Shown one piece after another: positions 6,078 through 6,685 of a stretch of 35,557 bases of DNA. The DNA comes from Candidatus Melainabacteria bacterium GWF2_37_15 (lineage in GTDB: Bacteria; Cyanobacteriota; Vampirovibrionia; Gastranaerophilales; UBA9971), in the NCBI GenBank assembly GCA_001784565.1, contig MFRL01000018.1:1-35557 (forward strand), in the 5' to 3' direction. Under the pieces are notes generated by a model, which saw only the letters and a list, made by a program, of their open reading frames with translations, was not told the origin of the DNA and ran no database searches. The stretch's first letter is position 1; each line of letters starts with the position of its first letter. The translations under genes were made by a program, and so were the position numbers.

Positions 6078-6148
6078 TGTATGTTGCCTCGTTGTCACTC
6101 TATATATCTTGAATTTTAATGTAAATATGTTATATTAAATATAAGGCA

Positions 6149-6170
6149 GGTGAGAGCTGCAACTCTCACC
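6149..6170. repeat. Small hairpin between the micro-ORF and gpmI
   Basis: Eight-base-pair stem GGTGAGAG / CTCTCACC with loop CTGCAA. It lies just after the micro-ORF stop on the minus strand. No T-run follows on that strand, so it is not a typical intrinsic terminator; it may close the 3' end of the small transcript or lie in the gpmI leader. Confidence 0.6.
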
Positions 6171-6180
6171 ATTCAAAGCC

Positions 6181-6267
6181 CTAATAGAACATTAATAACA
6201 AAATTTTGATTACGAGTAGTATCAATAAGATAACTACTCGTTCTCGCATTTTGATTTTAATTTCCAC
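6181..6267 (-). CDS. Hydrophobic 28-aa microprotein, candidate type I toxin
   Basis: A GTG-initiated ORF of 28 codons: VEIKIK, then MRE, then RVVILLILLVIKILLLMFY, i.e. a short basic N-terminus and one long membrane helix reaching the end. The ribosome site is extraordinary: AGAAAGGAGGTGAT (complement of 6273-6286) matches the whole 3' end of bacterial 16S rRNA over 14 nt, with AGGAGG nine nt before the GTG. Size, composition and a very strong ribosome site resemble type I toxins such as Ibs, Fst or TxpA. Alternatively it is a leader peptide for gpmI, which starts 103 nt downstream. No homologue can be named from sequence alone. Confidence 0.6.
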   Translation of the reverse strand: MEIKIKMRERVVILLILLVIKILLLMFY

Positions 6268-6335
6268 GTTGCATCACCTCCTTTCTCTGGCTATTTCACG
6301 TTTAGAGCGTGTCCAGAGGGGAAATGAAGGGCTTT
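6268..6335 (-). promoter_or_regulatory. Structured leader of the microprotein with hyper-extended Shine-Dalgarno
   Basis: The minus-strand leader contains CTCTGG ... CCAGAG (a six-base stem ending just before AAAGGAGG) enclosing a CACG/CGTG stem. AAAGCCCT (complement of 6328-6335) can pair perfectly with AGGGCTTT around the ORF's stop codon (6175-6182). A fold that joins 5' leader and 3' end is reminiscent of fold-back inhibition in hok mRNA. This is read from base complementarity only. Confidence 0.45.
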
Positions 6336-6463
6336 TTAGCCAAATTGAATTATCAAAGAGCAATTAATTTTTTAAATCATAGCATAATTATTAAACTTCC
6401 TGATAATTAAAATTTTTTTAGCATTGTTAGAATAAATATATGCAAAACATAGGGGAAACAGAA

Positions 6464-6685
6464 ATGGATATAGATAACATTATTTATAAAAGAATAGAGG
6501 AAGAAGCATTTCTGCATCATAAAAAAGATGAATGGAAGGACGCTTTGCAGAACTGGGGAGAAGCAAAAAACGAAATAATGGACAGAATACGTTTTATCGC
6601 TTATTATCTACACGTAAACAATCTTAATAAGCCTGCTCTCGATAATTGGGTGGAAGCACAGAAAATTTATATTAAAAACTTTTAA
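6464..6685 (+). CDS. Small DUF2934-like protein (tandem repeat)
   Basis: A 73-residue acidic cytoplasmic protein made of two similar halves. Each has the pattern I-x-x-x-A-(F/Y)... then W-x-x-A-(K/Q): RIEEEAFLHHKKDEW with NWGEAKNEI, and RIRFIAYYLHVNN with NWVEAQKIYI. This resembles DUF2934 units, whose function is unknown. The frame opens at an ATG at 6440, but the ATG at 6464 follows AGGGGA by seven nt, and the likely -10 (TAGAAT, about 6430) places the transcript start near 6440. Its stop codon overlaps the next start (TAATG), so it is translationally coupled to the membrane protein downstream. Confidence 0.75.
   Translation: MDIDNIIYKRIEEEAFLHHKKDEWKDALQNWGEAKNEIMDRIRFIAYYLHVNNLNKPALDNWVEAQKIYIKNF

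Follow-up and report, generated by a model that had tools for sequence, protein, structure and literature searches.

A dispersed, multi-copy type I toxin-antitoxin-like cassette predicted in the Gastranaerophilales

Introduction

What is encoded by a short minus-strand reading frame of Candidatus Melainabacteria bacterium GWF2_37_15, a member of the Gastranaerophilales, that starts with GTG and follows an exceptionally good ribosome site? The frame lies in a window of 35,557 nucleotides, by which we mean the whole stretch of DNA that was analysed (contig MFRL01000018.1 of assembly GCA_001784565.1). An earlier sequence-only reading took it for a type I toxin gene similar to Ibs, Fst/TxpA and hok, and offered a leader peptide regulating gpmI as the alternative. 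According to a paper of 2025, type I systems had been known only from Proteobacteria, Firmicutes and Tenericutes before that study's own single candidate from Microcystis (PMC12390103). We compared the locus with its copies in the same genome and in relatives, and the results suggest that it is very probably a chromosomal type I toxin-antitoxin-like module.

Results

The 28-codon hydrophobic ORF proposed in the sequence-only reading (6181-6267, minus strand) is present, and its translation is VEIKIKMRERVVILLILLVIKILLLMFY (Table 1). It is one of eight or nine copies of a cassette of about 230 nt in this genome; with the region as a DNA query, six further dispersed core copies were found in the genome and more in relatives. 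When 17 copies were aligned, a single architecture was seen, which on the minus strand runs, 5′ to 3′, from a GGG..AAGCCC segment through a leader hairpin, the motif AAAGGAGGTGAT and a hydrophobic ORF to GGGCTT, placed on the stop codon or immediately behind it, and finally a terminator hairpin.

Table 1. Features of the cassette copy in the window, with the evidence for each.
Feature	Position	Strand	Basis
Alternative upstream candidate sense promoter TGCTATGAT	~6376-6384	-	
Candidate sense promoter TTTAAA-16-GATAAT	6349-6376	-	best site in leader
Local 5′ hairpin GGCTAAAAAGCC	6330-6341	-	sequence; competes with the 5′-3′ helix for the same GCCC
5′ arm AAAGCCCT of long-range 5′-3′ helix	6328-6335	-	compensatory changes across family
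Anti-Shine-Dalgarno strand UCAUUUCC	6320-6327	-	consensus fold and single-sequence fold
Leader hairpin CTCTGGACACG...CCAGAG closing the ribosome-site lock	6285-6319	-	RNAalifold; two-sided changes in several pairs
Ribosome site AGAAAGGAGGTGAT	6273-6286	-	14 nt complementary to own 16S 3′ end
Putative toxin ORF, 28 codons, GTG start	6181-6267	-	basic N-terminus and single hydrophobic helix
Hairpin inside ORF	6208-6243	.	placed as antisense terminator when read on plus strand; U-run weak here
3′ arm AGGGCTTT of long-range 5′-3′ helix, overlapping stop codon	6175-6182	-	compensatory changes
Sense terminator hairpin GGTGAGAGTTGCAGCTCTCACC	6149-6170	-	family alignment
Candidate antisense promoter TTGAAT-16-TATATT, extended TG at 6128-6129	6109-6136	+	family position, alignments, model R2
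Predicted antisense RNA (putative antitoxin), ~100 nt	6143-6250	+	inferred from promoter and hairpin inside ORF

Two covariance models were built from different halves of the cassette, R1 from the leader hairpin and ribosome site and R2 from the 3′ end and the antisense promoter. R1 matched 75 of 383 Gastranaerophilales genomes, representing 25 of 52 genera, and at E <= 0.01 it located 8 copies in this genome. R2, at a stricter cut-off than R1, matched 109 of the 383 genomes and 32 of the 52 genera, and in this genome it found the same eight R1 loci and one more on contig C91. These prevalences are probably underestimates, because the E-value calibration was shortened and strict filters were used in the large searches. 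In a blind check of 20 previously unexamined R2 loci, 16 passed a strict filter for ribosome site and hydrophobic ORF, and at least three of the four that failed look by eye like diverged copies. Across 386 genomes of the phylum, matches outside the order occurred in 5 genomes only, about the chance expectation at the cut-off, and from their number and E-values we judged them to be noise.

Individual loci vary. The ninth copy of this genome (L132, G000:C91:4900-5330) is diverged, with a weaker ribosome site, AAAAGGAGAG, and an apparent peptide start of VDIKVTLKERLVITL. One real copy (L073) was missed by the ORF filter, two model matches (L080 and L099) look like false positives without a cassette, and a planctomycete pattern match (L029) lies in GC-rich DNA that lacks the other cassette features and was taken as chance. 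Tandem arrays were also seen, for instance in G057:C34, where the units repeat about every 305 bp, and in G003:C57 and C134 (L130, L131), where they repeat about every 400 bp; the copies that were read in the first of these (L150, G057:C34:29800-31140) encode different peptides.

The match of the ribosome site to 16S rRNA, which had been described as perfect over 14 nt, is exact: AGAAAGGAGGTGAT complements the 3′ terminus of the 16S rRNA of this organism, ATCACCTCCTTTCT, whose gene lies on contig C26. In the 2.27-Mb genome the 12-mer AAAGGAGGTGAT occurs six times, five of them in cassette copies and the last on the antisense strand of the 16S 3′ end, and its reversed control pattern occurs zero times. 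For the loci that were read, a 16S-antisense artefact was excluded as the source of weak single matches. The leader stem suspected beside the site is likewise real in the predicted fold, where UCAUUUCC pairs with GGAGGUGA (6274-6281) inside the ribosome site. A structure of the toxin mRNA that sequesters the site is predicted in both consensus and single folds, and in the single-sequence fold of the window copy eight bases of the site are paired. The fold is conserved, in that pairs of the leader lock and of the terminator show two-sided changes across the family alignment; for the sense terminator hairpin this holds in 9 of 9 pairs. By thermodynamic folding only, the unpaired probability of the ribosome site was 0.1 alike in full-length, 3′-truncated and leader-only RNA, and with its predicted accessibility unchanged we rejected a hok-like opening of the site by 3′ truncation.

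A second structure connects the mRNA ends. The usual form of this clamp is AAGCCC/GGGCTT, joining the 5′ and 3′ ends. The pairing of AAAGCCCT in the leader with AGGGCTTT at the stop codon, already pointed out for the window copy, is present and is kept family-wide by compensatory change: other cores still pair, among them AACCC/GGGTT, GGAATCCTT/AAGGATTCT, GGAGTTCTT/AAGAACTCT, AATCCG/CGGATT and ACTCCCGG/CCGGGAGT. A plain duplex-energy test was uninformative because long segments permit many mispairings and one core is common to half of the elements, and the 5′-3′ pairing was measured in its place by a contiguous-helix test on the non-canonical cores. In 38 distinct non-canonical cases, the native helix score averaged 16.55; mispaired elements averaged 13.17 (sd 0.43), and the native value was not reached in any of 2000 shuffles. 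In 59 of 79 elements, a 5′ hairpin of the GGG..CCC type was recovered with a simple pattern. In one divergent subtype (L084, G148:C13), a 5′-3′ helix of 14-15 bp, TTTAGTTTCTACAGT/ATTGTAGAAACTAAA, replaces the GCCC/GGGC core.

Is the peptide itself maintained? Among 65 loci fetched with R1, 61 carry an ORF that passes a filter of 18-50 codons, more than 45% hydrophobic residues and a start within a few bases of the ribosome site, compared with 8.4% for shuffled downstream sequences. The reading frame and its hydrophobicity are kept in about 80 cassette elements. In these elements the peptides are about 20-43 aa long and 45-83% hydrophobic, with a single hydrophobic stretch of helix length that is predicted to be a membrane helix. 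About 80 copies are intact; in one, L039, the frame was lost although the RNA structure was kept, through a frameshift seen on comparison with its near-twin, L038. From 18 independent pairs of cassette ORFs we obtained a pS of 0.337, a pN of 0.149 and a pN/pS of 0.44, which is conservative because the hairpin inside the ORF also constrains synonymous sites. Judged from these substitutions, the cassette peptide is under purifying selection. One chassis carries several peptide types (among them MKVKFALSERELLILVIV.., M.VVSKWDWLAIIIILLLL.., MIFAISEKALIIILIII.., MVVNTEELAIILLILLVLK.. and MKRDIIKKVLATLGHLIQILAEFV). The peptides have diverged to low identity, but the architecture is kept, with a fixed distance between ORF and ribosome site.

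These results bear on whether the cassette might be a non-coding dispersed repeat or MITE-like element in which the ORF is incidental. The cassette is indeed repeated, dispersed and sometimes tandem. Such an element is nevertheless very improbable in view of the pN/pS ratio, of a distance from ORF to ribosome site that stays fixed despite peptide divergence, and of compensatory changes in at least three separate helices.

A promoter on the opposite strand is found just beyond the sense terminator, facing back into the cassette. Across the family it is near-consensus (TTGAAA/TTGACA-16/17-TATAAT), with a spacing of 16-17 and a nearly fixed place relative to the stop codon, and 63 of 75 elements have at least 10 of the 12 consensus bases, against about 7% of dinucleotide shuffles. 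It is aligned in two alignments (A3 and A4) and included in R2, which matches 6107-6181 of the window; from its position, an antisense start is expected near 6143. The window copy is weaker than the family norm in its antisense -10 (TATATT), its -35 (TTGAAT) and its terminator U-run. The plus-strand promoter candidate put forward earlier, at 6206-6234, has to be given up, as it overlaps the hairpin inside the ORF and is no family feature; the conserved site is that at 6109-6136, slightly beyond the stretch that the earlier reading covered.

The hairpin inside the ORF was compared with synonymous permutations of the codons, which gave z = -5.5 for the window copy. In the family the mean z was -3.3 when synonymous codons were permuted within the ORF and -3.6 when codons were drawn from a pool, and p was below 0.05 in 61 of 66 ORFs by synonymous shuffles. 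Of the two strands, the antisense gives the slightly more stable hairpin (p = 0.014), and many members have T-rich sequence after the hairpin on the antisense strand. Because of this greater stability and the T-rich sequence next to it, the hairpin likely serves as the terminator of an antisense RNA; alternatively, it may act in the mRNA. An antisense RNA reaching from the promoter to this hairpin would be complementary to the 3′ UTR, the stop codon and the 3′ two thirds of the ORF. What favours taking the antisense transcript as the functional product, a trans-acting sRNA, with the peptide frame secondary, is that no other signal is as strong or as well placed as the antisense promoter. We give this explanation almost no credence, for it leaves the exact ribosome site, the lock and the conserved peptide without a role.

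The sense promoters are poorly defined, being weaker and less fixed in position across the family than the antisense promoter (mean score 9.18 of 12, against 8.54 in shuffles). A motif, CTTTGAAAA or CTTTGATAA, is found about 80 nt upstream of the ribosome site, at 6350-6361 on the minus strand and in about ten element leaders, and resembles an rRNA-type boxA antitermination sequence. One copy (L005, G000:C76) follows the stop codon of an accB-like gene so closely that hardly any space is left for a sense promoter of its own, and may be co-transcribed with that gene.

In the window, the cassette is located directly upstream of gpmI on the same strand, the arrangement behind the suggestion that it encodes a leader peptide or attenuator regulating gpmI. 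Synteny refutes this suggestion: the cassette is upstream of none of the relatives' gpmI orthologues with readable upstream DNA. Moreover, other copies adjoin unrelated genes, and the sense transcript has its own terminator ahead of gpmI, leaving a role as gpmI leader only a very slight chance. The neighbours of other copies, named by eye from sequence, are dprA-like, flagellar export, metG, accB, argH-proximal, coaE/trpG and hisD genes. A phage or plasmid origin of the cassette was rejected as well, there being no match in viral contigs by exact pattern and no blastn match in phages or plasmids. Also near the cassette, a block of about 50 nt (TTAAACTTCCTGATAATTAAAA...AGCATTGTTAGAAT, 6385-6435, plus strand) stands upstream of an 81-aa ORF (6440-6685) and is 82-88% conserved in four relatives (G001, G002, G006 and G008); it resembles a conserved promoter or operator serving this small gene.

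Does the cassette belong to a known toxin family? No toxin-family match was found in Pfam, where only sub-cutoff chance matches such as TatA and ATP-synt_8 appeared, or in NCBIfam, where only sub-cutoff TatA matches appeared; the TatA matches, to one peptide, are expected of any short hydrophobic helix. Curated profiles in these two databases gave no match to Fst/Ldr, Ibs, TxpA/Hol_Tox, Hok or other named toxin families. Rfam returned no match at gathering score over the whole window, and a match of the element to SprD (30 bits against a gathering score of 100), which comes from AT-rich sequence plus a hairpin, was discarded. The likeness to Ibs, Fst/TxpA and hok does not, on these profile searches, extend to family membership. 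In a full-text search of the open-licence literature, no report of such toxin-antitoxin systems was found for the Gastranaerophilales or Melainabacteria. On its architecture, we have filed the cassette in the type I class as a new family that belongs to no named toxin family.

Discussion

Type I anatomy is supported because the cassette is multi-copy and spread through the order, its 5′-3′ helix shows compensatory change, and its predicted antisense promoter and terminator are conserved. On these grounds the first identification as a type I toxin gene finds support in kind, but not in the site of the antisense promoter, the gpmI alternative or membership of a named family. The comparison also documents the locked ribosome site, selection on the peptide and the selected hairpin inside the ORF.

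We infer from the sequence that both RNAs are made. The mRNA from the minus strand would be short and highly structured and would encode a small hydrophobic peptide, which probably inserts into the membrane and is toxic when overproduced. The leader hairpin would hold the perfect ribosome site shut, and the AAGCCC/GGGCTT helix would clamp the mRNA ends. From the promoter beyond the mRNA terminator, an antisense RNA of about 100 nt would cross that terminator, then the GGGCTT clamp and the stop codon, and end at a terminator built into the peptide codons. By pairing with the mRNA over its 3′ half, this RNA would probably silence the mRNA, as RatA, SR4 and SR6 do with the txpA, bsrG and yonT mRNAs, and its binding may displace the GGGCTT clamp and create a long duplex for RNase III.

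The same anatomy could belong to a non-toxic small membrane protein, a regulator or a stress peptide, under cis-antisense RNA control, and the purifying selection on the peptide is consistent with this. We regard it as unlikely: there are multiple copies that diverge, form tandem arrays, are patchily distributed and have translation locked in several layers, all of which is usual in type I toxins but not in small housekeeping proteins.

How does the putative toxin-antitoxin module compare with known systems? Very short hydrophobic peptides in multi-copy tandem arrays are a feature of E. coli Ibs/Sib and Ldr/Rdl, and the cassette peptides are likewise short, hydrophobic and found in multi-copy tandem arrays. 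The cassette differs from both in its predicted antisense geometry and gives no profile match to them; Sib RNAs cover the Ibs ribosome site (PMC12390103).

In B. subtilis txpA/RatA, bsrG/SR4 and yonT/SR6, the antitoxin RNA overlaps the toxin mRNA in the latter's 3′ half (PMC6562991). The cassette resembles these systems in its small hydrophobic peptide and in a ribosome site paired within the mRNA (PMC6562991, PMC5848175). The positions of its candidate antisense promoter and terminator predict pairing with the 3′ half of the mRNA, the mode of bsrG/SR4. SR4 extends the ribosome-site lock of bsrG from 4 to 8 bp (PMC6562991, PMC5848175), whereas the 8-bp lock of the cassette is predicted without the antisense RNA. 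The cassette is further set apart from the B. subtilis systems by its phylum, by shorter peptides (about 20-43 aa) with no sequence similarity detected in Pfam or NCBIfam, by the covarying 5′-3′ clamp at the mRNA ends and by the selected intra-ORF hairpin placed as antisense terminator.

With hok/Sok and Helicobacter aapA/IsoA, the cassette shares long-distance 5′-3′ pairing, ribosome-site locking and compensatory changes (PMC6733600), and possibly a competing 5′ hairpin. The 3′ end of the aapA mRNA locks the ribosome site, which 3′ truncation frees (PMC6733600), but the lock of the cassette is local to the leader and predicted to survive 3′ truncation. The putative antisense RNA of the cassette would also cover the 3′ half of the mRNA and not the leader, unlike in both of these systems.

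The candidate type I system of Microcystis, msoT1/msoA1, has an antisense RNA that pairs with the 3′ UTR and the adjoining end of the coding region (PMC12390103), as the one predicted for the cassette would. MsoT1 has 63 residues, two predicted membrane helices and relatives in other cyanobacteria (PMC12390103). By this published description it stands apart from the single-helix peptides of the cassette, and within the phylum the R1 model is confined to the Gastranaerophilales apart from noise-level matches.

More tentatively, and at somewhat below an even chance in our estimate, the copies may form an order-wide superfamily in which one RNA chassis carries several unrelated-looking single-helix peptides, the antitoxin terminator lies within the codons of the toxin helix, and the pairing arms of the copies have diverged for self-recognition. 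If so, a terminator within the membrane-helix codons would make the toxin and antitoxin genes inseparable, and the diverged pairing arms of co-resident copies would let each antisense RNA recognise its own mRNA. The peptide code overlapping the putative antisense terminator offers a clear test case of two selective constraints on one short sequence, and the set of cassettes is large enough for a study of toxin and antisense RNA co-evolution. Type I systems can, by this example, be found by RNA architecture (5′-3′ covariation, an antisense promoter and a hairpin in excess of coding constraint) where peptide similarity fails. With this family, the known range of type I systems would grow by an entire order of mostly uncultured bacteria, in which the cassette spans tens of genera and forms multi-copy arrays.
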